A stretch of DNA of 60,896 nt from the NCBI GenBank assembly GCA_016783945.1, contig JADHVP010000004.1, positions 1 to 60,896 of the forward strand, read 5' to 3'. Below the pieces are notes generated by a model, which saw nothing but the letters and a program-made list of their open reading frames with translations, had not been told where the DNA came from and searched no databases. Position 1 is the stretch's first letter, and each line of letters begins with the position of its first letter. This stretch comes from Ignavibacteria bacterium (GTDB lineage: Bacteria; Bacteroidota; Ignavibacteria; Tepidaquicellales; Tepidaquicellaceae). Both the position numbers and the translations under genes were made by a program. Positions 1,424 to 28,831 of this stretch are shown here, piece by piece.

Positions 1424-4400
1424 TTTCAATCCCTGCCTGTAATGCATTTCAGCAGGCAGGCTTGTTGTGATGGATTATATAAAAGAACAGTTAGATTATT
1501 GGATATTAATGCAATTCCATTAAGTTTCAATCCTTGTTGTGATGGATTATATAAAAGAACTTAAATAAGGAGAAATAATGGAATACTGGTATGATAGTTT
1601 CAATCCTTGTTGTGATGGATTATATAAAAGAACCAATCTGGAAAATTATTACGAAATTTATACAGGAATTGTTTCAATCCTTGTTGTGATGGATTATATA
1701 AAAGAACTTTAGCAGAAGCAACAGACAGTTTACCATTTGAGTTGGAGTTTCAATCCTTGTTGTGATGGATTATATAAAAGAACATAATGTCTGGTGTTGT
1801 ATCATACAATATTAGGATGTTTCAATCCTTGTTGTGATGGATTATATAAAAGAACTTTATGCTAATTTTGTAATATTTAAATAACTTTCTGTGTTTCAAT
1901 CCTTGTTGTGATGGATTATATAAAAGAACTTCCCATCTATGCCACTGAATTGACTTTCATCTAACAGTTTCAATCCTTGTTGTGATGGATTATATAAAAG
2001 AACTCATTTTCTAAACAATAGTCATTAATTTTTTGTTCGTTTCAATCCTTGTTGTGATGGATTATATAAAAGAACTTTATAGAAAATTGTTTAATTAATT
2101 CTTGGTTATACATGTTTCAATCCTTGTTGTGATGGATTATATAAAAGAACTTTCCTCTTTTACATCATGCCCAGTACCGTATATTTGTTTCAATCCTTGT
2201 TGTGATGGATTATATAAAAGAACAAAATATCCGCTCTCCTCATACCATTTCGTTCCTGTAGTTTCAATCCTTGTTGTGATGGATTATATAAAAGAACGTT
2301 GTATCATTATTCATCAAGTGAAAGAGATTTATGTTTCAATCCTTGTTGTGATGGATTATATAAAAGAACGGTTGAAAGGGAACTGATGGTATTGAAACCC
2401 ATTCAAGTTTCAATCCTTGTTGTGATGGATTATATAAAAGAACTTGTAATTTATATTGAGACATACTACCCATCCCCATCAGTTTCAATCCTTGTTGTGA
2501 TGGATTATATAAAAGAACAGAAAAGGCATTAAGAACGGGTGACGGCGAAGACAGTTTCAATCCTTGTTGTGATGGATTATATAAAAGAACATTCAAGTAT
2601 CTCTTGTAATATCTTTTGCTTTTCTAAGTTTCAATCCTTGTTGTGATGGATTATATAAAAGAACTAAGGATTTTATAGATGATTTTCCACATGATTATTA
2701 GTTTCAATCCTTGTTGTGATGGATTATATAAAAGAACTGTATAACAAGTTTAAGGAAAATTATGAAGAAGAGTTTCAATCCTTGTTGTGATGGATTATAT
2801 AAAAGAACAATCTCCCCCAAGTGTAACATCTCCAGTGGTAATATCGTTTCAATCCTTGTTGTGATGGATTATATAAAAGAACCTGTAACCGTCTATATGA
2901 GAAACTATACAAGTGCATTGTTTCAATCCTTGTTGTGATGGATTATATAAAAGAACTTTTTGTTTTGTCCATTGTCATTGTTTTGATTATTTAAGTTTCA
3001 ATCCTTGTTGTGATGGATTATATAAAAGAACATTCATCCCAAAGACGGGCGGAGCATCAGCTACGACGTTTCAATCCTTGTTGTGATGGATTATATAAAA
3101 GAACCAAATCCAAAAGATGCAAGCTTCACTAATATATCGAAGTTTCAATCCTTGTTGTGATGGATTATATAAAAGAACAGAAGTCAGTAAGTGATTCATT
3201 TGAGGATGCAAAGATGTTTCAATCCTTGTTGTGATGGATTATATAAAAGAACCCCTCTCTCTAACTCCCTCAATTCCCTTCAATATTTCGTTTCAATCCT
3301 TGTTGTGATGGATTATATAAAAGAACCCCTCTCTCTAACTCCCTCAATTCCCTTCAATATTTCGTTTCAATCCTTGTTGTGATGGATTATATAAAAGAAC
3401 TTACCTCCGCCTTTCAAGAGTCCAAATGGAGTCCACGTTTCAATCCTTGTTGTGATGGATTATATAAAAGAACTTAAAGCATATACTTTCATTAGTCCCG
3501 ATTATTTCTAAGTTTCAATCCTTGTTGTGATGGATTATATAAAAGAACAAAGTGATACCCAGCCTCAGCCTGTACGTTTCCACGTTTCAATCCTTGTTGT
3601 GATGGATTATATAAAAGAACCTTTGCCTACTGATTGGATAGACAGGTTTTCTTTGAGTTTCAATCCTTGTTGTGATGGATTATATAAAAGAACTATAGGT
3701 GAATGTTACCAACTTTTATATAGTTTAAGTTTCAATCCTTGTTGTGATGGATTATATAAAAGAACTTAATGTAATGGAGCCTCCTCCTACTATTCAAATT
3801 CGTTTCAATCCTTGTTGTGATGGATTATATAAAAGAACAGGTAACAAGACTATTTTTAGTAATGTTAGATTGTTGTTTCAATCCTTGTTGTGATGGATTA
3901 TATAAAAGAACTGTTAAGCGGAAAGGGAATACTGTTTATTTTATTTTGTTTCAATCCTTGTTGTGATGGATTATATAAAAGAACATAACTCCTTTGAAAA
4001 GCATACAGGTTAAGCATAGGTTTCAATCCTTGTTGTGATGGATTATATAAAAGAACAGGATACGGGGAAGAGGACGAAAGTGTTGATGGTGTAGTTTCAA
4101 TCCTTGTTGTGATGGATTATATAAAAGAACTTCTGAGCGAAGCGAAGAATCCAGTGGCTTTATTTTGTTTCAATCCTTGTTGTGATGGATTATATAAAAG
4201 AACAGGCAGTATTTGAAGAAGAAGGAAGATTGGGACTGGAGTTTCAATCCTTGTTGTGATGGATTATATAAAAGAACGTTACTCGATACCTGACAAAAAC
4301 GGATACTGTAGTGTTTCAATCCTTGTTGTGATGGATTATATAAAAGAACTTGCGAACCATCAGTGTCGAATTCAAACCGCACAAGTTTCAATCCTTGTTG

Positions 4401-8469: not shown

Positions 8470-8654
8470 TACAATTTATTTTTTCTCGTGTATGTTTTTT
8501 GTTACACGGAGTTTCACGGAGAAGACACTGAGATTTATGAAAAATATTTTTATTACTTTATGTTTTTAATAACTCATGAATGCTTCGTAGCAAATATTTT
8601 TGGAGGCAGCATACAATATTATTGTATATTTTTGGAGTCATAACACAAAAATAT
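8470..8654. other. Gap between effector and adaptation cas genes
   Basis: This 185-bp non-coding stretch splits the cas operon into an effector half (cas8b to cas6) and an adaptation half (cas1, cas2, cas4). It contains a phrase of the type TTACACGGAGTTTCACGGAG (about 8501-8520), similar in style to short dispersed repeats elsewhere in the window. An internal promoter for the adaptation genes is possible but not demonstrated. Confidence 0.45.
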
Positions 8655-9326
8655 CTAAAATTTTCTTACTATACATCCAAAACCTCTCGATACAGATTTT
8701 CCAATACCAATGTAATCCGGCAGCAAGACATTAGTTGTGAACTTACCTTTAAAAGCAATCATTGATTTGTTCTTAAAACTTGTCTTCTTCTCTATTAAAT
8801 CGCTTTTTATTAAAATGTTTTCAGAAGCATGATAATTTATTGACTTAAAAAAGCTCAAAATGTTACCGGTTAAAATGCCATCCAATAATTTTGAAATATC
8901 ATTTTTTTGTTTTTCTTTTTTTAATTTAATATATCGTTTATGATTATACTGGTTCAAAGCCATCCAAAGAGTCTCAAATTCATATTCGTGAAGTTCATTA
9001 GTCAAACCTGTTTCGCAATTTTTGTTTTCAATATTCTTACTGTAAACCGGGTAAATTTTATTTTCAATATTCAATTCTTTTATTTTTAGAAACAGCGATG
9101 TTAAAAGTTCAGCACCCTCGTTAATCCCAACTAACATAGGAACTCCTTTCACCACTTTATACTGAACTACTGGATATTTATATATCTGCGTACCATCTTC
9201 GAAATGGTTATGAAGCAACTGAGAATGTTCTTTGAACAAGTCCCCGAAGTATCCGCGTAGTTTGTGAGCATCGCGTGTGAGGAGATTTATTTCGGGGAAA
9301 CGTATTGTGGAAGTGAGGATGTGCAT
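8655..9326 (-). CDS. cas6: CRISPR repeat endoribonuclease Cas6
   Basis: A 223-aa RAMP protein. The C-terminal glycine-rich loop GIGKSVSRGFGCIV (about residues 206-219) and the LPDYIGIG strand before it are the hallmark of Cas6. The N-terminal half has the second ferredoxin-like domain, with a possible general-base histidine at one of the N-terminal positions. Cas6 cleaves the repeat transcript to leave the ATTGAAAC handle. It follows cas3 by 12 bp, whereas in many I-B loci cas6 is first in the operon; here it is the last effector gene. Confidence 0.87.
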   Translation of the reverse strand: MHILTSTIRFPEINLLTRDAHKLRGYFGDLFKEHSQLLHNHFEDGTQIYKYPVVQYKVVKGVPMLVGINEGAELLTSLFLKIKELNIENKIYPVYSKNIENKNCETGLTNELHEYEFETLWMALNQYNHKRYIKLKKEKQKNDISKLLDGILTGNILSFFKSINYHASENILIKSDLIEKKTSFKNKSMIAFKGKFTTNVLLPDYIGIGKSVSRGFGCIVRKF

Positions 9327-12595: not shown

Positions 12596-13609
12596 TTAAA
12601 GTGAAATAATAATATCTGATGAAGATTTAATTTTAACTTCTTTTATTTTCTTGTCTTCACCTTTATTTTCTTTCAACAAGGTCAATAGTCTGTTAAAACT
12701 AATTTCCAAATCATTAAACTTTCTAACTTGTTTTTCGGAAACACCTGATTTAGGAGATACATCTACATAATTTCTTAAATCACCGAATTGACCATTTGAA
12801 AACCTTTCGTTATAAATAACTTCCACATAAAGTTTTGGATATTGATTAAGCTTAGAGCGGGTAGGATTTGCTGGAATACTTTCCCAAAGGGCATTTCGGA
12901 AAACTTCAACATCTTCATCTGTTAATCCGGTAGTTTTAGCTGCGGGAGTATTAATCGTTCCATTAAAACCTAATAAACTGTAATGTACTCTATAGTCTTT
13001 TCCGAAAGTGCTACTATCATCATTCATTATCGTAACTATCGAACTTGAATCAATCAGTTCTACCTTATTGAATGAATAACCCCAGTTTAATTGGATTGGA
13101 CCCGTATAAGCTTTTGTAAAACCGGCAACTGCAAAAGCACTTCCGAACATTCTTATATCAATAAATTTTTCTTTCACTAAATAAGCAAGAAGCTCGTAAT
13201 TAACTTCCTTATCTTTGAATTTTTTGTCTGCAATAACTTTCCATACTTTATCCGGTTCTTTTTCTTTACTAATGATTTTTTTGTAAATATCTAGTGCATC
13301 TTTATTTTCTGTAAATACTTTTTCTAATTCTCCAGGATTTTCTATAGTCCTTTTTACGACGGCCTTTAGTTTGCTATCAACGCTTACTTTTGAATTACCT
13401 TCCATATCTACAAATATACATTCATCTTTGTTCGTGGATTTTAAATAATCCCTAATAAATCTTTTCACACGAGTATCAGTAACCAAATTGGTATTGGTGT
13501 CATAATCCATTCTTGGTTTGTTTTCCTGATCCGGGTCGCCATTTGGATTGCATTGTATAGCTTCATATATGAACAGGAAATCTGATGAGTTTTTTATTGT
13601 CTCTTTCAT
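12596..13609 (-). CDS. cas7: Cascade backbone Cas7 (Csh2 family)
   Basis: A 337-aa Cas7 of the I-B Csh2 type. The N-terminus FIYEAIQCNPNGDPDQ, then RMDYDTNT and TDTRVKRFIRDYL, matches the conserved Cas7/Cst2/DevR signature. Multiple copies form the crRNA-binding backbone of Cascade. The middle contains RMFGSAFAV and the GPIQLNWGYS strand expected in this family. It sits 24 bp after cas8b in the effector operon. Confidence 0.94.
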   Translation of the reverse strand: MKETIKNSSDFLFIYEAIQCNPNGDPDQENKPRMDYDTNTNLVTDTRVKRFIRDYLKSTNKDECIFVDMEGNSKVSVDSKLKAVVKRTIENPGELEKVFTENKDALDIYKKIISKEKEPDKVWKVIADKKFKDKEVNYELLAYLVKEKFIDIRMFGSAFAVAGFTKAYTGPIQLNWGYSFNKVELIDSSSIVTIMNDDSSTFGKDYRVHYSLLGFNGTINTPAAKTTGLTDEDVEVFRNALWESIPANPTRSKLNQYPKLYVEVIYNERFSNGQFGDLRNYVDVSPKSGVSEKQVRKFNDLEISFNRLLTLLKENKGEDKKIKEVKIKSSSDIIISL

Positions 13610-13633: not shown

Positions 13634-15610
13634 TTAATTTTCAGTTTCTTCGGTTTCTACATCTTCAATTTCTTTTGCCTCTTTTGTACTTATACCAAAA
13701 GAATAGCCGGTAAGAAGAAAGAAAACGGCTTCCTTCGGGTTCAGTTTCCAATTATTAAAATCGAATAGTTCTCCAAATTTTCTATCAGTAAAAATAATCT
13801 TGCCGATAGTATTATGTTGTCTAGATTTTTCAATTAAATCCTTCCTTAATCTTTCGATGTCATCTATATCCATCCCGTTGAAATTTACTTTATTGATGAC
13901 GGTTTTCTTAATTTTCTTTTTAATTTGAACAAATTCAACCGCATTTAACATACGTCCAAGATAGAACATTGATTGCTGTGCTGTATTGAGTTGCATTTTG
14001 TTGAAGAAATCTTGTATGGCTTGGTCATACTTATTTCTGGTTTCTTCGGTGATTGGTTTTATTTTTTCCATATTTATTAGATTTAATTTTTTTAGTACTT
14101 GAATGAAAGCGTGGTATTTAAAAACACTATCGCGTACAGTTTTTCCAAAATAATCTTTAGAAGATTTAATGATATTATTATAGCTGTTGTATCGCTCGTA
14201 GTAATGACATAAAATAAGTTCACAGAAGTAATCAAAAAGCTTAACATGATTAATGTTCCTGTTTTCCAAAATTGACTTAAACAAGTCTAAGGCTTTATTC
14301 CTCTTTTCCTTATCCTTTCGAATTGGAATTAGTCCATAAATAGTATTGAGATTAAAAAACCTCCCTGGATTTCCGTATTCAGTCATTACTGAATTCCAAT
14401 CAATATAATTAGCTTCCTTTAGTTCCCAGTGAATATCACTAAATGCCTGTATGACCTTTTGAAAATGAAAATTGCTTACATCCTTGATAAGTTCAGTTGA
14501 TTTGAAAAAGTTACCATCGGATTCATACGCCATAAAATTTATCCAGAAAATATCTTCTGTTTCATCTTCGATATTTTTTACCAAATCTTCAAGCGTATTA
14601 AAGTGGAATAAAATGTCCGCCTTCTTCTTGATACCTGTTAAAACCATTTCCCAATCAAGATTTTCACTTTCACGGAATTGGGGGATTATAACGTGGTCTA
14701 TATTAGCTATTGAAATTCTATATTTCTCAAGTAAATACTTGGAAGCAAAATCTAGTTTTTCTTGATTAGAAACCGAAACCTGGTAATTTATAGCTGCGTT
14801 TTTTTTATCAAATCTATTTATATAGTTTTGGGTTGTTGTAACAAACATTTTATTTAAGCTGTAACCTGCGGTTAAATTTAGTTCGGTAACATTTTCATAG
14901 TACTCATTATTGGCGTAACATAGTTTTTTTGAACTTACATTACTTAAATTTTCAGACTTCTTTTTGTAATCTTTTACGGAGTATTTTAATTCCAAAAACT
15001 CCCTATATTCATCTAATTCAGCAAATGGCTTTGGATCGTTTATTCCAAATTCTTTATATTTAACTTCAATATAAATCATAGCAACATTTTCACTTCTTTC
15101 AAGGTTCAAGTCCTTTATAATCTTAAGAAAGTTTATTTTCGAATTTCCTTCACCATCTTCTTCGGTAATCAATATCTCCGCCTTACTTTTAAGTTTAAAG
15201 ATTTTATCAATAAGCAAAGTAAATTTACTGTTATCTAAGTTCGGGTAGTCTTTGATAATAATTGATTTTAGTTCACCATATTTTACTTCAGTTAATGGTT
15301 TTCCAAAAAAACTCTTAAAGACTTGTTCATATTTACCGGATAGTGAAGCGGAATAGAATGGCTTAAATCTTCTGCCTAAATTTTTTAGCAAAAAATATTT
15401 GCTTATATCACTTTCATCGTACTCTCTAAGATTCTTCGCATCAATTATCACCTCCATTTCATCTAAATCAAAAATTATTGGAAGAATAAAGTGGGAAATT
15501 TTATTCCCCTTTTTATCCTCTGTCTGTATCTTTGGTTTATCTAAAAAGCGAGCCCATTCGCCTTTACCCTGGCTTTGCCATTTACCAATTTTTAGTAATG
15601 TATCAAGCAT
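13634..15610 (-). CDS. cas8b: Cascade large subunit Cas8b (Csh1/TM1802 family)
   Basis: A 658-aa protein, first gene of the cas operon. The N-terminal MLDTLLKIGKWQSQGKGEW and HFILPIIFDLD segments, the LRRDL-like helix-rich C-terminus, the length, and its place directly before csh2/cas5/cas3 fit the divergent Csh1/TM1802 large subunit, which recognises the PAM and recruits Cas3. The C-terminus ends in a Glu-rich tail (KEIEDVETEETEN). Family members are poorly conserved, so context carries much of the assignment. Confidence 0.88.
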   Translation of the reverse strand: MLDTLLKIGKWQSQGKGEWARFLDKPKIQTEDKKGNKISHFILPIIFDLDEMEVIIDAKNLREYDESDISKYFLLKNLGRRFKPFYSASLSGKYEQVFKSFFGKPLTEVKYGELKSIIIKDYPNLDNSKFTLLIDKIFKLKSKAEILITEEDGEGNSKINFLKIIKDLNLERSENVAMIYIEVKYKEFGINDPKPFAELDEYREFLELKYSVKDYKKKSENLSNVSSKKLCYANNEYYENVTELNLTAGYSLNKMFVTTTQNYINRFDKKNAAINYQVSVSNQEKLDFASKYLLEKYRISIANIDHVIIPQFRESENLDWEMVLTGIKKKADILFHFNTLEDLVKNIEDETEDIFWINFMAYESDGNFFKSTELIKDVSNFHFQKVIQAFSDIHWELKEANYIDWNSVMTEYGNPGRFFNLNTIYGLIPIRKDKEKRNKALDLFKSILENRNINHVKLFDYFCELILCHYYERYNSYNNIIKSSKDYFGKTVRDSVFKYHAFIQVLKKLNLINMEKIKPITEETRNKYDQAIQDFFNKMQLNTAQQSMFYLGRMLNAVEFVQIKKKIKKTVINKVNFNGMDIDDIERLRKDLIEKSRQHNTIGKIIFTDRKFGELFDFNNWKLNPKEAVFFLLTGYSFGISTKEAKEIEDVETEETEN

Positions 15611-15897: not shown

Positions 15898-15914
15898 GTA
15901 TCATTCAATGATAC
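15898..15914. promoter_or_regulatory. Palindromic operator candidate (copy 1)
   Basis: GTATCATTCAATGATAC is a perfect palindrome, two 8-bp arms around a single C. It is located 288 bp upstream of cas8b and 5 bp beyond the stop codon of a relic WYL gene tail. Related sites occur at 20881-20895, 25049-25065 and 28801-28818, each embedded in A-GTATCA-NNN-AATGATA-Y followed by a TTTTCT-like run. WYL-family repressors typically bind such inverted repeats. Binding here is an inference. Confidence 0.6.
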
Positions 15915-15916
15915 TT

Positions 15917-15982
15917 TTCTCACTCATAATTTCTCAGCGTCCCCTTCGCAAGCTCCATAACTTTTTCTTTAAGTTCGGGAGG
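15917..15982 (-). pseudogene. Relic 3' tail of a WYL regulator gene (tail 1)
   Basis: On the minus strand this stretch encodes PPELKEKVMELAKGTLRNYE and a stop, differing at only a few positions from the C-terminus of the intact WYL protein (PPELKEKVLELAKGTLGNYE, gene at 19917-20780). DNA identity to the intact 3' end is about 88 percent over 68 bp, then is lost abruptly at 15983, 17 bp before the fic stop codon. Only the tail remains. Confidence 0.82.
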
Positions 15983-15999
15983 TTTATTTATCAATGATT

Positions 16000-17535
16000 T
16001 CATTTATCAAAAATATCAGCATAGGCATTTTCAATTGACACGATTTCATCTTGGCTCAGGTTTTTGAACTCATTACTTCTTGCTCTTTTAGAAAGTTTGC
16101 CATGTCCTTGTTCCAAAAATCGTATTAAAAGTGCAAATGTTTTATCCGGCATATCAAACTGCCCTTCAATAAACACCTTCATTCGATCAAAATTTTTGAG
16201 ATATTTTACCTCTTCAGGTATAGTTACATCAACTGTCTCCCGAACACAGCTATAAAGAAATTCTGCTTGCCTGGTTGCATCAAAATAACGGTATAAATCA
16301 GTTGTATTATTAAGGACTTCTACATTATTATCAGCGGTCTTTTTCCAATCAATTAAATTCATTCGAGGTATGGAATAAGTTTCCAATACTTCCCTGTATT
16401 CATCAATTCTTTCTAAAATTACAGAAGAGACAGGAAATATCATTCCTTTATTAGCAAATCCCATTTTAGACAAAACATGATGAATAAGGTATCGATGAAT
16501 ACGCCCATTTCCATCAACAAAAGGATGAATAAAAATAAAACCAAAGGCAATTATTGCAGCTGCTAAAACAGCATCATAGTCAGAATCTTGAAGTTTGTTA
16601 TTCGTATCTATAAGTCCTTGCATTAATGTATCTAAATCCTCCCATTTTGCTGAAATATGATCAGGGATCGGCGTCCCTGTCGTTCTGTCGTGCTCTCCGA
16701 CAAAACCTTCCTCTTTACGAAATCCCATTTTCACAAACCGATCGCTTTCAATAATGATTTGCTGCAATCTGAAAAACTCTTCTTTTGATATCAATTTTTC
16801 CCCAGCCTGTCCAATAGCTCTTCCCCATCTTTGAGCCCTGTTTTGCGGCGGTGTTTCTCCTTCAATAGCATAGGAGGCTTTTGAATCTTTTAGTAGAAGA
16901 AATGCTGATGCACGCAACAAAATATTTTTCTGAATTTTACTCAAGGCAGCTTCCAGTTTCTTAGAAAGGTGAAGCTCGATAAATTGTTCCAGTTTTTTTG
17001 TACGCCTGATTAAAGGGCAGAAACTCCTAACACCAGGAAGGTTATTATTAACACGATGTCTTTTAGATTTTTCTGAAGGTCCCGGGTACTGCAGCTTTGG
17101 ATTTATTAGATCAATAAAGTTTCCCGTTTTTAAATCCGGGATGTCAAGCTTTTTATTCAACAACCATTCATACAAAAACCAAATTCTTCTGCTATACTGC
17201 CCGGTGGGTTCACTAGTAATTATTTTTGTTATCTCGTTTTCGTCAATAGTCAAAAATAAAGATTTCAAAACATTTAGCTCCAATCCTTCATATTTCAAGG
17301 CAAATGTTAGATGACTGAATAAATCGTCTTTCGGTGAGTGTCTGGGAGTAAAAACAGCCCATTCTTCAGTATCGTAATGTCTTGTCTTTTTACTTATTAA
17401 CGATAGTCTATCAGGTATCGGAACTTTAAGAGCAAATGCATCGATTAGTGCACCATAACCAGCCAATTCTCCTTTTTCGGGTGTAATTCTTTCATGAAAA
17501 ACAGTTACAGATCGTGAAATACAATTATTTTTCAT
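16000..17535 (-). CDS. Fic domain protein (class II, with N-terminal inhibitory helix)
   Basis: A 511-aa Fic protein. The catalytic loop HPFVDGNGRIHR begins at H337 and matches HPFx(D/E)GNGR exactly, so AMP-transferase (or related NMP-transferase) activity is plausible. An inhibitory motif SYAIEG at 221-226 fits (S/T)xxxE(G/N), and its position before the Fic core marks a class II, self-inhibited enzyme. The N-terminal 150 residues and the C-terminal winged-helix-like part (KLSKRARSNEFKNLSQDEIV) are accessory. It sits alone between two WYL gene tails in the accessory island. Direct 50-bp repeats cover its start codon and upstream region, suggesting autoregulation. Target protein unknown. Confidence 0.9.
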   Translation of the reverse strand: MKNNCISRSVTVFHERITPEKGELAGYGALIDAFALKVPIPDRLSLISKKTRHYDTEEWAVFTPRHSPKDDLFSHLTFALKYEGLELNVLKSLFLTIDENEITKIITSEPTGQYSRRIWFLYEWLLNKKLDIPDLKTGNFIDLINPKLQYPGPSEKSKRHRVNNNLPGVRSFCPLIRRTKKLEQFIELHLSKKLEAALSKIQKNILLRASAFLLLKDSKASYAIEGETPPQNRAQRWGRAIGQAGEKLISKEEFFRLQQIIIESDRFVKMGFRKEEGFVGEHDRTTGTPIPDHISAKWEDLDTLMQGLIDTNNKLQDSDYDAVLAAAIIAFGFIFIHPFVDGNGRIHRYLIHHVLSKMGFANKGMIFPVSSVILERIDEYREVLETYSIPRMNLIDWKKTADNNVEVLNNTTDLYRYFDATRQAEFLYSCVRETVDVTIPEEVKYLKNFDRMKVFIEGQFDMPDKTFALLIRFLEQGHGKLSKRARSNEFKNLSQDEIVSIENAYADIFDK

Positions 17536-17600
17536 AATATTTTGTGAATAATGGTTACATATTGTGAAATACGGTTATTTATAATAATATTCTATGAAAA
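17496..17600. repeat. 50-bp tandem repeats over the fic start codon
   Basis: Two 50-bp units (17496-17545 and 17546-17595) and the start of a third share the pattern GAAAAACAGTTACA ... GTGAAATACAATTATT ... AATATT. Each unit holds two half-related GAAA-N4-TTA phrases, and a further single phrase GAAAAATAGTTATA is near 17673. The first unit lies in the fic coding start, the second upstream of it. Confidence 0.7.
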
Positions 17601-17709
17601 ACACTTATATCACCAAGATAACATGAAAATCATTTAAATTCCATTAATAATAAATTAAATATTAATTCTTCATGAAAAATAGTTATAATTCGACTATTTC
17701 AACTCCTTG

Positions 17710-17782
17710 CCTCACTCATAATTCCCCAGTGTCTTTTAGCAAGCTTAATAACTTTTGCATTAAGATTATGAAGTTCGAGTAC
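17710..17782 (-). pseudogene. Relic 3' tail of a WYL regulator gene (tail 2)
   Basis: The DNA aligns with the 3' end of the intact WYL gene (CTCACTCATAATTCCCCA start, then AGCAAGCT, then GTTCGAGTAC end), but substitutions and an indel destroy the frame: it reads VLELHNLNAKVIKLAKRHWG. It is the most decayed of the three tails and lies just downstream, in the minus sense, of the DUF3800 relic. Confidence 0.65.
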
Positions 17783-17828
17783 AATAATGCTTTTGTCTGC
17801 ATAACTATCAAGTTAACTTGACATACAA

Positions 17829-18005
17829 TTATAACTTCATTATGTTTGTTGTATAAAAGTTTAACAAGTAAATCCCTGTATGTGGGCCTCCGTATGGTTG
17901 CTCTAAAATAGCATACAGGGTTTTGTATTTATGGAAACAACGGATTTTCTCCTTTGTAAAATCAAATCCAAGATCTCCGCTTTCATCAAGTACTATATAC
18001 CCCAT
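17829..18005 (-). pseudogene. Truncated DUF3800 protein, N-terminal relic
   Basis: An ATG at 18005 opens a 58-codon frame beginning MGYIVLDESGDLGFDF. The xxDESGDxG start is the signature of DUF3800 proteins, a putative RNase-H-like fold whose first Asp is at the predicted active site. These proteins are usually over 200 aa, whereas this frame stops at 17829 and loses similarity after about residue 18. An inverted repeat CCCTGTATG/CATACAGGG (17874-17882 and 17912-17920) lies in the divergent part. I read it as a broken gene, consistent with repeated replacement events in this island. Confidence 0.6.
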
Positions 18006-18060
18006 GCTTTAAAAATATCCGTTAATTTTAAATCATTAACCTCTATGTATTTTTCTCTTT

Positions 18061-18140
18061 CTCACCCATAATTCCCCAGTGTGCCCTTCGCAAGCTCTAT
18101 AACTTTTTCTTTTAGTTCAGGAGGTTCGAGGACACCTACG
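18061..18140 (-). pseudogene. Relic 3' tail of a WYL regulator gene (tail 3)
   Basis: The minus strand encodes VGVLEPPELKEKVIELAKGTLGNYG before the stop, almost identical to the C-terminus of the intact WYL protein. Homology ends at about 18140, next to an imperfect inverted repeat. It is the best preserved tail. Confidence 0.8.
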
Positions 18141-18221: not shown

Positions 18222-18302
18222 ATTAATCCCCCTGTCTCCACCAACCATTTCAAACACTATATTTACTACCAACTTATTTACCAACCCTTCTACTAACCGT
18301 TT
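18222..18302 (-). pseudogene. Relic of a second AlbA/GHKL-type gene linker
   Basis: The minus strand reads NGLVEGLVNKLVVNIVFEM and stops near 18222. The GLVEGLV repeat closely resembles GLVKGLVEGLVE in the linker of the neighbouring intact protein (18332-19696, residues 383-394). It lies just downstream of that gene's stop codon, so it may be the remains of a paralogue or of a duplicated 3' segment. Confidence 0.45.
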
Positions 18303-18331
18303 GCAACCTTGATATAATTTCTTAAACAAAT

Positions 18332-19696
18332 TTAATTGGTCCTTATTTTCCAGCTTCCTCCTTTAGCTGGTCCAATTCTTTCTAAAATACCCAAATTCTT
18401 GAGTTTTTCAATGTTTTTATCAATTGCTGTTGTAGATATACCAATCTGTTTATGAATTTCACTCTTGGAAATTTTTGGGTTTTCATAGATAAGCCAGACA
18501 ATTTTTTTCTGATTTTCTACCAACCCTTCTACCAACCCTTTTACCAACCCTTTATCTATTTGAACACCTTTTCTTTCAAGAGTTGTTATAAAGACATCCG
18601 ATAATAGATCAAATTTTGTTTGTGGTTCTTTTTCAAGAATAAGTGCAATACCCCTCCCTTTCCTTTCAACATAGTGTGCTCTACTAAGTACATCGGCAAT
18701 AACTTCATTTCTTCGTTTAGAAATGTTTCTTTTGATGATGTCTTGAATACTAAGACCTCCGAAAAGTCCACCGGGATTTTTTACTTCTATTCTATCCTTA
18801 AAAATTCCTATCGAGATAAAATCAGGATTAAAATAATCTCTATGCAAAAATGCATTAATGATGACTTCTCGCAAAGCTTCATTATCTATTTCCGGGACAT
18901 CCTTTCTGTATAAACCATCGACCTTCATTCCGATGTGTATGTTTTTAAGAATATAATTTTCAGCTTCGTGTAATAGATAAAACAAATCGCCGGTGAATTC
19001 CTTTTGGTCGATAATATGAGCTGTATTCGTTGTGGCAAAAATACTGCACATTAATTTTGTGTTTGAGAAAAACTTTTCCGGTTTTTTCGAAAACAATACA
19101 ACACAAGCGTTTAAAGGTTTCTTACTTGCAAGTAAATTAAGTGAATCTAATACATCGCTTAATGATGTAAATTTTATTTCTGCTTGTTTACAATATGCTT
19201 TTACCTTATAGTGATCAATGTCTTTAAGAGTTGCTGAATCGTTTCTTGTTTTATCCCATCGAATATCTTGATGGTTAATGATAAATCTTTTTAACTCATC
19301 TGCAGATAATTGTTTATCTTCATCAGCAACTCGGATATAGTATCTTCCTTCGGCAGAATAAGGAATCTGGTGACCTTCTAAAGTAATTTTAATAACCTCA
19401 ATTGAGCTGATCTTAGATAGTTCTATCGATGGGTAAATCTTTGGTTCAATTTTGTGTGAAATAGATTGGGATATATCGCGCAGTGTTTTTACTGAGTACT
19501 TAGCTTTTATAGGAGAACCATCATTTTTTATCCCGAAATACAATTCACCTTTTTGGTGTTTGTTAAGAATAGCAGAGATAGATTTGAGTGCTTCTTTGAG
19601 TTCACCTGTGGATTTTTTAAATTCAACTATTTCTGATTCTTTTAGTTTCACTGTTTGTTTAACGTATTGTAAGTTTGATAATCTCTCATATCCCAT
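18332..19696 (-). CDS. Schlafen AlbA_2 / GHKL ATPase-like protein with C-terminal winged helix
   Basis: A 454-aa protein of the family annotated as AlbA_2-domain or ATP-binding, RecG-like regulators. Residues about 18-135 form the AlbA_2 (Schlafen-type) domain (ESEIVEFKKS, LYFGIKNDG, GRYYIRVADEDKQLS). Residues about 270-350 carry a GHKL-like ATP-binding signature (EALREVIINAFLHRDY with N281, NPGGL at 307-311). A GLVKGLVEGLVE linker then leads to a C-terminal winged helix (396-454). Function is probably nucleic-acid-dependent regulation or defence; the exact role is unknown. It lies upstream of WYL tail 3 on the minus strand, in the same arrangement as fic with tail 1. Confidence 0.82.
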   Translation of the reverse strand: MGYERLSNLQYVKQTVKLKESEIVEFKKSTGELKEALKSISAILNKHQKGELYFGIKNDGSPIKAKYSVKTLRDISQSISHKIEPKIYPSIELSKISSIEVIKITLEGHQIPYSAEGRYYIRVADEDKQLSADELKRFIINHQDIRWDKTRNDSATLKDIDHYKVKAYCKQAEIKFTSLSDVLDSLNLLASKKPLNACVVLFSKKPEKFFSNTKLMCSIFATTNTAHIIDQKEFTGDLFYLLHEAENYILKNIHIGMKVDGLYRKDVPEIDNEALREVIINAFLHRDYFNPDFISIGIFKDRIEVKNPGGLFGGLSIQDIIKRNISKRRNEVIADVLSRAHYVERKGRGIALILEKEPQTKFDLLSDVFITTLERKGVQIDKGLVKGLVEGLVENQKKIVWLIYENPKISKSEIHKQIGISTTAIDKNIEKLKNLGILERIGPAKGGSWKIRTN

Positions 19697-19916: not shown

Positions 19917-20780
19917 TCACTCATAATTCCCCAACGTCCCCTTTGCAAGCTCCAAAACTTTTTCTTTTAGTTCAGGTGGTTCGAGCACTATAACACCTTC
20001 ACCTCTGCTTACTATCCAGCTTGCTATTTCACTTAATGAGTTTACTGTAATTGAAAGGTCCATCGTTCCGTCATCATACTCTTCGATTATCTGTGATTCC
20101 ATTAACTGCTGTGGCTTAATCCTTGATGCCCATTCTTTTGAGAACTTTAACTTTACATTAAACTTCTCATTACCCTGCCAGCTCTTCCAGGAATGTTTGA
20201 ACAGGTCATCGATTTGATTTTGAGGTACTCGTTTGAACTTTTTACCTGTCTCTTTTACTTCGATTATCTTGTTCAAAAGGAATTGTTTTATAATACCGTT
20301 GTCAAGTGCAAGAACTCTCCAATTATTTTCAGTTTGAAAAAGTTGTATTGGAAATATTTCTCTTGTCTTTCTTGGTTCGTTTGCAACTTTCTCGTAAGTA
20401 ATAAGGACAGCTTTGTTGTTATCAATACATCTCTGCAATACAACGATGTTGCAGATTGCTTTCTCCTTTAGCTTGCTTACCATCAGAGCAGTAGATTTAT
20501 CGAATGAGTTCTGTGAAAAACACAATCCAATATAAAGCCGTGCAATTTCTTTTAATTTTTCAAGTGGAATCTTACCTGTGATGCAGACTCCGTAATTTTT
20601 AGCAGAGTGGATATCTATTCCGTTTGCCCGCAAGTCCTGCAGGTCTCGTTTTATGGTAAGCTCTTCTACATCGAATATCTCTGCCAGGTCGAGTATTGAT
20701 AATGCATTTTTCCTTTCATTAGCAATGCACAAACCTAATAGTTCTATCTGTCTTTTTATCTTGGTCTGAATTTCAAACAT
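19917..20780 (-). CDS. WYL-domain transcriptional regulator
   Basis: A 287-aa protein. An N-terminal DeoR-like helix-turn-helix (about 1-60, SILDLAEIFDVEELTIKRDLQDL) precedes a WYL domain (about 115-195: AVLITYEK ... REIFPIQLFQTENNWRVLAL) and a C-terminal WCX-like extension ending PPELKEKVLELAKGTLGNYE. WYL proteins of the BrxR/CapW type repress defence operons and respond to nucleic-acid ligands. The gene is divergent from the ARPP-1 operon, with a palindrome in the shared 171-bp region, the typical CapW layout. Three further 3' tails of the same family lie in the 4 kb downstream, so this is the sole intact survivor. Confidence 0.9.
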   Translation of the reverse strand: MFEIQTKIKRQIELLGLCIANERKNALSILDLAEIFDVEELTIKRDLQDLRANGIDIHSAKNYGVCITGKIPLEKLKEIARLYIGLCFSQNSFDKSTALMVSKLKEKAICNIVVLQRCIDNNKAVLITYEKVANEPRKTREIFPIQLFQTENNWRVLALDNGIIKQFLLNKIIEVKETGKKFKRVPQNQIDDLFKHSWKSWQGNEKFNVKLKFSKEWASRIKPQQLMESQIIEEYDDGTMDLSITVNSLSEIASWIVSRGEGVIVLEPPELKEKVLELAKGTLGNYE

Positions 20781-20880
20781 GGAATATGATAATAGAAATT
20801 TAACAAAATGCTGTTTGATTGAATTATTCTATATCACAGGAAGTAGTGTCAGATTCTGCAGCATGTTTTCAAGAAAATAA

Positions 20881-20895
20881 TATCATTCAATGATA
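20881..20895. promoter_or_regulatory. Palindromic operator candidate (copy 2)
   Basis: TATCATTCAATGATA, a 7+1+7 palindrome, lies midway between the WYL start (20780) and the ARPP-1 start (20952). Read on the minus strand it is AGTATCATTGAATGATAT, matching the other copies. Its place in a divergent WYL promoter makes it the best-supported member of the four-copy family. Confidence 0.65.
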
Positions 20896-20951
20896 CTAAA
20901 GTAAATATTATAAAAAGTAAATTAAGATAAAAATAAATAAGGGAGAAAAAA

Positions 20952-21863
20952 ATGCAATCTCAAATTTTGAACATACAAAATAACGGGTGTTTGACCATAG
21001 CTGAACTTTCTACAGAAGGAACCGATAAACTCATGTATATAAGCGGAGACACAGCTATTAAGCAGAGAAAATTAATCATCGAAGAAGTCTCTGAATCCGG
21101 GAGTGTGAATGATTTACTTGTAAGGAATCTGTCAGACCAGTTTGTATTCATGATGGACGGGGATATCTTAATAGGTGCAAAGCAGAACCGTGTTTTAAAT
21201 ACTTCTGTGTTTATAGCACCTGAATCCAAATCAAAAATCAATGTAAGCTGTGTTGAATCAGGCAGATGGGCTTACAGAACAAAGTCATTTACTTCTGCTG
21301 ATTTCACAATGGATTTTGCAATGCGATGCAGTAAATCGAGAGCCACGACAAAAAGTTTACGGGAAAAACGTGGGCATTACGCAGACCAAAATAAAATATG
21401 GGAAGGAATAGCTGATTCACATTCCTCTAGAAAAATTTATTCTGATACGTCAGACTACTCGGAAATTTATGAAACATCGAAAAAGGATATCAATAAATTC
21501 ATAAATGATTTCAAATCTGATAGCTCAGCAAATGGTATGTCTGTTTTCATTAACAATAAATTGATATGTCTGGATATCTTTGGAAGAAAAGACATATACA
21601 AAGAATATTTCCCAAAGCTTTTAAAGGGTGCTGCACAGGATGCTATATTTATAAAGAAGAAAAAAGAGTTTAATGAAGCTGAGGTAAAGTACAAGACGGT
21701 AGATTTCCTTGATAAGTTCGATGACATGAAATTCACTTCTCATAAAGGTCTTTGTGAAGGTCAGGAAAGAAGATTTGAAACAAAAGAAATATCTGGTTTT
21801 GAATTACTGTATGAAAACAATCTAATTCATTTAACCGGTTTAAACATTAAAGATGAAAAATAA
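20952..21863 (+). CDS. ARPP-1 domain protein
   Basis: A 303-aa protein whose core (about residues 12-110) matches the ARPP-1 domain: LTIAELS near the start, SVNDLLVRNLSDQFVFMMDG, ILIGAKQNRVLNTSVFI and SKINVSCVESGRW. ARPP-1 was named from comparative genomics for its association with predicted prokaryotic conflict systems; its biochemical role is not known to me. A strong Shine-Dalgarno GGGAG lies 6 bp before the ATG. The stop overlaps the next start by 11 bp. Transcription is divergent from the WYL regulator, which suggests WYL control. Confidence 0.78.
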   Translation: MQSQILNIQNNGCLTIAELSTEGTDKLMYISGDTAIKQRKLIIEEVSESGSVNDLLVRNLSDQFVFMMDGDILIGAKQNRVLNTSVFIAPESKSKINVSCVESGRWAYRTKSFTSADFTMDFAMRCSKSRATTKSLREKRGHYADQNKIWEGIADSHSSRKIYSDTSDYSEIYETSKKDINKFINDFKSDSSANGMSVFINNKLICLDIFGRKDIYKEYFPKLLKGAAQDAIFIKKKKEFNEAEVKYKTVDFLDKFDDMKFTSHKGLCEGQERRFETKEISGFELLYENNLIHLTGLNIKDEK

Positions 21864-22842
21864 CAAAATGAAAATAGCAGAGGGGAAAATATATTATGAG
21901 CAAAAGCCCAAGCTTATGCTCGAGGAACTTAACAGTTTACAGAGAGAAAAAATAACAGTCGATCCAACCAAACTGAAATTGAAAGATGACAAGGATAGAC
22001 TATTGCTTCAGGTAACAAACGGAAGCGTAAAACATTACCCGGTTAGAAGAGCATTCCTTTACAAACTTCTTAAATGGTACTGGTTTCCAACAAGACTTAT
22101 CTATAAACTCAGCACAGAATCAATTGTATCTGTGTGTAATGATTTTCTACTGAACATAAAATCCGACCAGGTAAATGTTAAAATTGAAAACGATGAAGCT
22201 CTAACAATCACGAGTATGAAATATACTGATATAACTGATAGGGAAATACTGGAGATGTGTGTACCGTTCGATATAGGCTCTGTTTCAAGGTCAGATTTTT
22301 GTATGAGAATGTATGGGCAAAAGTTGCTCAATGCTGCGCCTGTTGTGGATGATAAATGCGGTTTTGGATTTAATATTTTAAATTCAGAGACAGGGTTTAG
22401 AGCTCTGGGTGTTTATCATTACATATTGAGATATATATGCACTAACGGAGCCATCGCACCGGTTAATGGTTCTTCAACGTATGTTCATTACGATAAGAGC
22501 AAGAAGAATATTCTCGAATCTCTAAAGAAAAATCTTGATAAGTTGGAGGATTCAAAATTGATTATAATAAAACAATTGGGGAGGATGCAATATGCAGGGG
22601 GAAGAAAATATTTAAGTAACATAAAAAAAAGTCTGGAAGCATTATTAGGTTTAAAGGAAACAAACAATTTTGTTGAAAAGTTTGAGATGTCATTGAGCAA
22701 AAAAGAACAAACCAAATATGATTTGTTTAATTACATCACTAATAGAGCTAAGCTATATGATTTTGGAAAACGCATTGCAATTGAAGAAATAGCAGGGAAA
22801 TTAATTTCATTAGACGTGAAAGAAGAAACAAATCAAAATTAA
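21853..22842 (+). CDS. DUF932-like protein in the ARPP-1 operon
   Basis: A 329-aa protein with NSETGFRALGVYHYILRYICTNGAI at about 177-201, resembling the NS-x-G ... R-x-VC-x-NG signature of DUF932 (phage/plasmid-like TIGR03299) proteins. The rest is alpha-helical and Lys-rich, with no membrane segment. The function of the family is not established; members are frequent on mobile elements. The start at 21853 (MKNNKMKIAEG) overlaps the previous gene, and M6 is an alternative. Co-transcription with ARPP-1 suggests a two-protein system. Confidence 0.62.
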   Translation: MKNNKMKIAEGKIYYEQKPKLMLEELNSLQREKITVDPTKLKLKDDKDRLLLQVTNGSVKHYPVRRAFLYKLLKWYWFPTRLIYKLSTESIVSVCNDFLLNIKSDQVNVKIENDEALTITSMKYTDITDREILEMCVPFDIGSVSRSDFCMRMYGQKLLNAAPVVDDKCGFGFNILNSETGFRALGVYHYILRYICTNGAIAPVNGSSTYVHYDKSKKNILESLKKNLDKLEDSKLIIIKQLGRMQYAGGRKYLSNIKKSLEALLGLKETNNFVEKFEMSLSKKEQTKYDLFNYITNRAKLYDFGKRIAIEEIAGKLISLDVKEETNQN

Positions 22843-23702: not shown

Positions 23703-25024
23703 TTCCCAATAGCTCCTTTAGGTCGTTCATCACCATCTGCCCTGGTATAATCTTCCTCATAATTTATATTGATTCCATATTCCAATATCTTTTCTATAGT
23801 ACTTTTCAACTCTGGATTATCATTCTGTACTGACAACAGTTCTAAAGCATTGTTCAAATCATTAATTCCGTCTTTTTTATATTTAAGATGTAGATACGAT
23901 ACTCCTCTGTAATAATAAGCTTCATAATCTGAGTCGTTGAGTATCATGTGTTCGCTGAAGTCTCTTGAAGCAGCTATATAATTTTGCATAAGGAAATAAA
24001 CTATACCTCTTTTTAAATAAAGTCCACGGTCTGATTTGTTCTGTTTTAAATCATTCGTATAGCCTGTTATAAGATTGCTGTATGTGTTTAAAACTTTTCC
24101 TTTTGTAGTAGTTGTATCATAATATAGCCAGTTCTTTTCAGGGCAAATCTCCATGAGTTTGTTATAATCCTCAAAAGACAATTTGTATTCTCTTGAGTTA
24201 TAACGGGCATAACCTCTGTAGTAATAAGCCTCCGGATAAAACTTGTTGATTTCTAATAGTTCGTTGCACACACGCTCAACCTGTGAATACTCTTCATATA
24301 CAAAAGAATTGATCATTCGAAATCTTAAATCTATCGTAAGCGTATCTACGCTGTAATAATTTCTATTAACTAAAACATCTTCATAATATGAAATTGGTAT
24401 GGCAAAGTTTATTCCGGGATAGGTATCATAACCGAGAGTTGTAATTCCTATTAACTCACCCTTTGAATTAAATAATGCACCACCACTGCTGCCGGGAGAA
24501 ACTATTGCTGAGAATTGAAGCATATCACTATACATTATATCGAAGTTTCTCTTTAATCCACTTATAATCCCATTACTAAAAGAGTTGCTCAGTTCGAATG
24601 GACTACCAATCGTATAAACATTTTCTCCAACTATGAAGTTATCACAGTCGCCCAATTTGACAACAGGTAACTCTAAACTATCAAGTGATAGGATCGCAAT
24701 GTCTCTTGATTCATTCGCTGCGATGAGTTTTGCAAAACCCAAAGTTACGCTGTCTTTTTTAATCTCATACTTTTTCGCTTCTGATAAGACATGAAAATTT
24801 GTTGCAATAATTCCAGGCTCAATAATGACACCGCTTCCACTTATCCATTCTTCATCTTGATAATCATACGTGAAAATATCTACTACTGAAGGAGAGCACA
24901 TCTTAAAGACCTCTTGAGGAGTTAAATCCTGAGAGAATAATTTTACAGTTGTGAAGAGTAAAACTATTGTGATAAAGACTATTATTTTTTTCATGATGAA
25001 TAAATTTAAGTTAATAAAATTCAC
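23699..25024 (-). CDS. Secreted trypsin-like (S1C) serine protease with TPR repeats
   Basis: A 441-aa frame. The likely start is M11 (MKKIIVFITIVLLFTTVKLFS), which begins a signal peptide, so the protein is exported. A trypsin_2 domain follows with the full triad by motif: H78 (ATNFHVL), D108 (RDIAILSL) and S180 (SPGSSGGALFN). No PDZ domain follows. Residues about 250-400 contain TPR-like repeats (AYYYRGYARYNSREYKLSFEDY, AYYYRGVSYLHLKYKKDGINDL). DegP-like proteases act on envelope proteins; a TPR partner domain suggests a specific target. It heads an operon with two small membrane proteins and is preceded by one of the 58-bp repeats carrying the palindrome. Confidence 0.85.
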   Translation of the reverse strand: MNFINLNLFIMKKIIVFITIVLLFTTVKLFSQDLTPQEVFKMCSPSVVDIFTYDYQDEEWISGSGVIIEPGIIATNFHVLSEAKKYEIKKDSVTLGFAKLIAANESRDIAILSLDSLELPVVKLGDCDNFIVGENVYTIGSPFELSNSFSNGIISGLKRNFDIMYSDMLQFSAIVSPGSSGGALFNSKGELIGITTLGYDTYPGINFAIPISYYEDVLVNRNYYSVDTLTIDLRFRMINSFVYEEYSQVERVCNELLEINKFYPEAYYYRGYARYNSREYKLSFEDYNKLMEICPEKNWLYYDTTTTKGKVLNTYSNLITGYTNDLKQNKSDRGLYLKRGIVYFLMQNYIAASRDFSEHMILNDSDYEAYYYRGVSYLHLKYKKDGINDLNNALELLSVQNDNPELKSTIEKILEYGININYEEDYTRADGDERPKGAIGK

Positions 25025-25031
25025 ATCTGAT

Positions 25032-25089
25032 ACAAAATAATGTTTTTTGTTTTAAGAACAGTATCAGAGAATGATATTTTTCTAAGGAT
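25032..25089. repeat. 58-bp direct repeat, left copy (with palindrome copy 3)
   Basis: Matches 28774-28831 in 55 of 58 positions in the same orientation. It begins CAAAATAATGTTTTTTGTT and ends TTTTTCTAAGGATG, with the operator-like GTATCAGAGAATGATAT inside (about 25049-25065). It lies directly upstream of the protease gene and 84 bp before a divergent TPR gene. Similarity is lost sharply at both ends. Confidence 0.88.
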
Positions 25090-25172
25090 GAGCTTTCAGG
25101 ATTTTTTGTTTTTAATAAAAGGATTAATTTTAAATAAGTATCATAATCTTCGTTCAATATTATTACAAAACA

Positions 25173-28495: not shown

Positions 28496-28773
28496 AGTAC
28501 TACAGGCAACAATGTATATAAAAAATAGGCGAGACAGGTGCTCCATTAAGTATTGGTGCATGCAATTCATTTTGACATATAGGCAACCTCGAATTGTACC
28601 CTCCTTTTTAAAAGTCAAATTTAAGCCTTTTGATTATTGATGTTGCCTTTGTAACCATTAGTAATAAACTTTTTTAAATAAACATCATTATAAATGGAAA
28701 GACATTTACCACATAAAAAATAAAATGTAAACAGTTATGTGGAAAGATGAAAAAACAAAATCTTCTTCTGTCC
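28496..28773. other. Intergenic downstream of the nuclease module
   Basis: No supported gene. It contains short repeats of GGCAAC (near 28507 and 28580) and GTTGCCTTTGTAA (near 28644). The last 13 bases also occur near 25518, just before the module, so this could be a secondary boundary sequence. Confidence 0.4.
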
Positions 28774-28831
28774 CAAAATAATGTTTTTTGTTATGAGAAC
28801 AGTATCAGCGAATGATATTTTTCTAAGGATG
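28774..28831. repeat. 58-bp direct repeat, right copy (with palindrome copy 4)
   Basis: Direct copy of 25032-25089 with three mismatches, containing GTATCAGCGAATGATAT (about 28802-28818). It lies downstream of the beta-CASP gene and has no gene starting next to it on the minus side, unlike the left copy. The offset between copies is 3742 bp. Confidence 0.88.

Follow-up and report, generated by a model that had tools for sequence, protein, structure and literature searches.

How does the end of a regulator gene come to stand several times over between unrelated genes of a defence island? The question is raised by a 60,896-nucleotide (60.9-kb) stretch of contig JADHVP010000004.1 from an Ignavibacteria bacterium (GenBank assembly GCA_016783945.1), hereafter the window, in which an intact WYL regulator gene is accompanied by three further copies of its 3' end, here called tails A, B and C, each beside a different gene, or cargo. 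With a little less than even confidence, the locus is read here as the result of the repeated addition of unrelated cargo behind the WYL gene through recombination in its 3' end, in each case by a single crossover. The gene has 864 bp, and its product has the Pfam architecture HTH_11 - WYL - WCX. The copies lie as follows:

19917..20780, minus strand: intact WYL regulator gene, whose 3' end is repeated (Pfam WCX 8e-17, WYL 4e-6, HTH_11 2e-6; PADLOC WYL 1e-24)
18056..18133, minus strand: tail B, WYL gene positions 793-870, 88% identical, in frame, stop codon TGA at 18062-18064
17711..17812, minus strand: tail C, WYL gene positions ~762-865, frameshifted and decayed (alignment with gaps)
15916..15984, minus strand: tail A, WYL gene positions 800-868, 88% identical, in frame, stop codon TGA at 15920-15922

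These repeats are real and non-random. A repeat search of the window returned a single family of four copies of 78 nt, at 15914, 17705, 18056 and 19911, the last being the 3' end of the intact gene, while blastn of the WYL gene against the window found B at E = 5e-23, A at 9e-20 and C at 2e-8, and local alignment gave the tails scores of 53/60/41, where shuffled sequences reached maxima of 18-24. The final 18 bp of tail C are identical to the WYL gene. The three extra tails had been proposed in a sequence-only reading, which the repeat search, blastn and local alignment bear out in coordinates and order; it had placed the start of the homology just before the stop codon, whereas in A, B and C the homology reaches gene position 865-870, i.e., 1-6 bp past the stop. 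The same reading had the homology breaking off after 65-80 bp, which describes A (69 bp) and B (78 bp) but not C, where a weak extension runs to ~105 bp (gene position 762). When the gene and its 300-bp flanks were compared with the window by blastn, no 5' or middle WYL fragments were found, the matches being the three 3' copies and one upstream palindrome, and no second WYL of the same kind was found in the genome.

On the minus strand, the observed order is WYL gene, AlbA_2/GHKL gene, tail B, DUF3800-like relic, tail C, Fic gene, tail A, palindrome and the cas8b/CRISPR I-B operon, with the four repeat copies in one array and each neighbouring pair separated by a different cargo:

18332..19696, minus strand: cargo 1, between the WYL gene and tail B, an AlbA_2 (Schlafen-type) + HATPase_c_4 protein (Pfam 4e-18 and 5e-18)
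17829..18005, minus strand: cargo 2, between tails B and C, a relic with likeness to the DUF3800 N-terminus (motif MGYIVLDESGDLGFDF, read from the sequence)
16000..17535, minus strand: cargo 3, between tails C and A, a Fic protein (PADLOC candidate PDC-S24; Pfam Fic 4e-12, PDC-S24 2e-202)

Each tail lies just downstream of a minus-strand cargo, as had been proposed, with A ~15 bp past the Fic stop, C beside the relic and B ~200 bp past the AlbA_2 gene. The relic has no Pfam match at 1e-3 and owes its assignment entirely to the N-terminal motif. Across 341 genomes of the class, the homologues of Fic (24 further matches) and AlbA_2 (seven) have neither a WYL gene nor a tail in their ~1.5 kb flanks, so that the cargo genes and the WYL gene are not inherited together.

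The stretch immediately upstream of the Fic gene (17490-17610) has repeated GTGAAATA-N-GTTAT-like units, perhaps an operator array. Behind the intact AlbA_2 gene, 18240-18310 holds what is left of a VEGLV repeat from an AlbA_2-type protein, matching at 81% over 42 bp; this was rejected as a tail, being only the relic of a similar gene's C-terminal repeat.

The tails had been described as decayed, which is correct for the frameshifted C but not for A and B, which are open and in frame to the stop, reading PPELKEKVMELAKGTLRNYE and PPELKEKVIELAKGTLGNYG, respectively, up to the stop codon. Tail A, tail B and the WYL gene differ pairwise at 8/60 nt, about equally for all pairs, and the changed codons are synonymous in shares of 5/7, 5/7 and 4/7, where the neutral mean is 0.21-0.23 (P 0.005, 0.005 and 0.027). 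A second case was found among the comparison loci, which comprise related WYL genes of Ignavibacteria in public genomes (the genus is represented in the sets searched by the present genome alone). In G044 (L057, L145), which belongs to a different family, the WYL gene is followed by an AbiEi antitoxin gene, beyond which lies a second WYL 3' end of 153 bp, 94.8% identical, that begins at the stop codon and in which 7/8 changed codons are synonymous (P 0.0006). The mostly synonymous divergence of A, B and the G044 tail is poorly explained by the slow decay of a whole gene in place, and the codons give moderate evidence that the tails belonged to functional genes until not long ago; the copies look like the 3' parts of distinct WYL alleles, each evolving as a protein-coding sequence.

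The boundaries of the tails bear on how they arose. The homology extends for 69 bp in A, 78 bp in B and ~105 bp in C, for 153 bp in G044 and for 171 bp in G042, another related genome, so that its limit on the side of the cargo 3' end falls at gene positions 800, 793, ~762, 705 and 691, respectively. On this side, the boundaries checked do not coincide at one base of the tail, so that a fixed landing site is not demonstrated. Near-constant right ends with variable left ends fit a single crossover better than a fixed attachment site, given that under a crossover the left end is the start of the incoming fragment and is expected to vary. Site-specific tandem accretion appears rather improbable; here the WYL 3' end would be the attachment (att) site of a tyrosine recombinase and the cargos would be decayed elements like cis-mobilizable elements (CIMEs), in the order attL-cargo-attR, with the integrase elsewhere. 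The right ends within 6 bp of the stop would suit such a mechanism; the left ends vary, the repeat lengths differ (153 bp in G044, 69-105 bp in the window), no unusual or att-like fold was found in the tails, and no recombinase was seen in the window, although other contigs of the genome (78% complete) carry three genes of the integrase family and a 46-aa fragment of one. Folds of the attC or terminator type were also sought in the tails, and nothing exceeded the shuffles except the palindrome behind tail A.

This palindrome provides the operator-like context of the array, which is itself an observation, together with the genes on either side:

15898..15914, no strand assigned: palindrome GTATCATTCAATGATAC, 5 nt behind the tail A stop, putative WYL operator and native 3' flank
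20880..20896, no strand assigned: the same palindrome with 1 mismatch, in the WYL/ARPP-1 divergent promoter region
13634..15610, minus strand: cas8b, which opens the CRISPR I-B operon beyond tail A and the palindrome (PADLOC Cas8b 2e-83)
12596-13609: Cas7b, neighbour of cas8b (PADLOC 1e-51)
20952..21863, plus strand: ARPP-1 gene, divergent neighbour of the WYL gene (Pfam ARPP-1 1.6e-82)

The WYL gene therefore sits at defence systems, with Cas8b, Cas7b and the PDC-S24 Fic downstream. Counted with up to 2 mismatches, GTATCATTNAATGATAC occurs within 450 bp upstream of WYL in 23/46 related loci (expected ~0.3) and within 100 bp behind the WYL stop in 5 loci (expected 0.07); as loci from one genus are not independent, the P values are too small, although the enrichment is large nonetheless. 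The palindrome GTATCATTNAATGATAC is likely to be the WYL operator. In L053, L063, L146, L159 and L160, it stands 6-71 nt behind the stop of an intact WYL gene, and in L160 it is followed by cas6 and more genes of a CRISPR operon. As the palindrome at tail A is placed as it is behind intact WYL stops, tail A is best read as a native WYL 3' junction before CRISPR: it looks like the junction of a WYL gene that once stood before the CRISPR operon, with the cargo inserted ahead of it. As a probable operator, the palindrome would put CRISPR I-B under WYL control here.

In a second cluster (G000:C81, L005:7140-7320 and 8645-8840), two ~180-bp direct repeats, 83% identical, flank a TPR gene; they begin with ~12-25 bp of the WYL end, followed by the palindrome, resembling the flank of tail A. 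They were set aside as tails, being mainly palindrome and leader, with at most ~25 bp of the WYL end.

The addition of cargo by crossover might then have proceeded as follows. A WYL regulator with its operator would have stood ahead of the CRISPR I-B operon, and the Fic gene, the DUF3800-like gene and the AlbA_2/GHKL gene would have been added successively, each directly behind WYL. Each cargo would have arrived on circular DNA together with part of a WYL 3' end that stemmed from a related lineage. One crossover joining this part to the 3' end of the resident gene would restore a whole, hybrid WYL gene, behind which would follow the cargo, then a truncated WYL 3' end and finally the old flank. 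Tail A and its palindrome would represent the original 3' junction, and tails C and B would derive from the later additions. The single crossover, the agency of the host's homologous recombination, the order of insertion and the origin of the donor in a relative are what we infer from the arrangement.

Several observations weigh against this account. The circular donor molecule is an assumption, searches of viral contigs and phages gave no relative of the WYL gene and those of plasmids only distant ones, and the sets searched offered no empty site or close strain for comparison. The synonymous excess amounts to few sites and lies partly on the branch of the intact gene. G042 retains a lone 171-bp tail together with 73 bp of its native downstream flank but lacks a WYL gene ahead of it, a pattern of loss or replacement rather than insertion; this remnant has its best relative in the whole WYL gene of G031 (L056), to which it is 85% identical over 241 bp. 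The WYL gene of G039 is a pseudogene that is decaying in place before its usual glutamate dehydrogenase neighbour, and ~40 related loci with a close WYL show no tail in the available flanking DNA. The sequence-only reading had named the in-place decay of WYL genes without cargo as the pattern that would speak against exchange, and this pattern is present in G039; G044 fits the addition of cargo.

The G042 remnant, which keeps only the WYL 3' end and its native downstream flank, and the G039 pseudogene also speak for a serious rival, one that is possible though we consider it unlikely, and which is close to what the sequence-only reading had proposed. Here the locus would once have been a row of complete WYL-led units (with AlbA_2, DUF3800, Fic and CRISPR), whose redundant WYL genes were deleted or overwritten, leaving the 3' end beside the promoter of the next unit. 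A WYL 3' end does stand directly upstream of every cargo, the CRISPR operon included, regulators of the BrxR type likewise stand upstream of the systems under their control, and contig C81 has two remnants of WYL end and operator before two further genes. On the other hand, this history needs three independent deletions, each stopping within the final 65-105 bp of the 864-bp WYL gene, there is little sign of slow decay in A and B, and elsewhere the homologues of Fic and AlbA_2 stand without a WYL gene beside them. The earlier idea of remnants left by exchange keeps its support in that it is always the 3' end that remains, in the mostly synonymous divergence and in the AbiEi case of G044; the part in which whole WYL genes were replaced by cargo implies several former whole copies, which nothing shows, and insertion behind one WYL gene fits equally.

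The tails might also have been kept for a function of the DNA itself, such as promoter or terminator of the next cargo, and be unrelated to recombination. This appears very improbable: every tail is upstream of a cargo and tail A adjoins the probable operator, but the tails have no terminator-like sites and the region shows no excess over shuffles, B, C and the intact end fold no better than shuffles, the folding of the stretch with tail A is due in large part to the palindrome, the reading frame is preserved in A and B, and most relatives have no such tails.

When 396 genomes of the phylum were screened with a C-terminal profile of 62 positions, no additional isolated tail could be clearly assigned to this WYL subfamily, pieces of fewer than ~20 aa being beyond its reach. 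The CRISPR spacers matched neither WYL nor the tails nor the cargo. A 144-bp copy of the WYL 3' end in L142 (contig JAKIZM010000071.1; junction region L142:13429-13732), 97% identical, was set aside as a probable assembly chimera, lying at the contig's very end and fused in frame to another gene at GAAGATGG; the repeats near the WYL end in L128 and L160 are dispersed or simple repeats rather than tails.

The neighbourhoods of the related WYL genes include types with a divergent ~190-aa gene, with a downstream 428-aa gene (glutamate dehydrogenase-like by inspection of its G039 counterpart) and with ARPP-1, as in the window, the last at 11 loci with the window counted. ARPP-1 and a 329-aa gene without Pfam match (20952-22842) form a conserved partner pair of WYL in several Ignavibacteria. 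Elsewhere in the window, 78-bp direct repeats (86%) containing GTATCAGNGAATGATAT, at 25013-25090 and 28754-28831, bracket 3.7 kb that encode a TPR-like protein, a metallo-beta-lactamase/RMMBL protein and two products of unknown family, and two adjoining CRISPR spacers at 3252-3362 are identical.

Two independent genomes lend partial support to a preferred exchange site at the WYL 3' end. It is a good deal more doubtful that this 3' end serves as a landing pad for defence genes without an integrase of their own, with the newcomer spliced behind the regulator, the regulator rebuilt and the newcomer brought within reach of the operator. The manner in which defence islands gain genes without a mobility function is not well understood, and a regulator 3' end left at each addition would constitute a readable record of the events, while the operator directly behind the regulator suggests a way for a newcomer to come under control at once. 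If the landing pad were true, the regulator would shape both the expression and the growth of the island, and, if general, such tails could point to earlier insertions in islands elsewhere; with support from two genomes, this is a lead.

Among known arrangements, defence-island hotspots carry unrelated defence genes at one position beside a conserved gene. In contrast to these, the shared sequence here comes from the island's own regulator, namely from its last 70-150 bp, and would leave a trace for each event.

The WYL regulators of the BrxR family (PMC9122601, PMC9122589) resemble the present one in the combination of HTH, WYL and WCX at a defence cluster, and in an inverted-repeat site upstream of their own gene (here the palindrome at 20880-20896, a putative operator), a likeness of architecture, site and location. 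In that family the site is an 11-5-11 repeat, whereas here it is an 8-1-8 palindrome with a divergent ARPP-1 partner, and the repeated 3' ends between cargo have no mention in the passages of PMC9122601 consulted.

The closest parallel in layout is found in the tandem accretion of CIMEs and integrative and mobilizable elements (IMEs) by a tyrosine recombinase, which is well described (PMC5704250). In such arrays, exemplified by SGI1 at trmE and the MGIs (mobilizable genomic islands) at yicC, direct repeats of a gene 3' end flank each cargo, the target gene is whole and the tandem array has decayed units, as in the window, and toxin-antitoxin or restriction cargo may also be held (PMC5704250). 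The repeats of tyrosine recombinases are generally short, at 8-60 bp (PMC5704250), while those described here have 69, 78, ~105 and 153 bp with variable left ends, longer than that range. The window has no visible integrase or transfer gene, and the target is not a housekeeping or tRNA gene but the regulator of the defence island itself.
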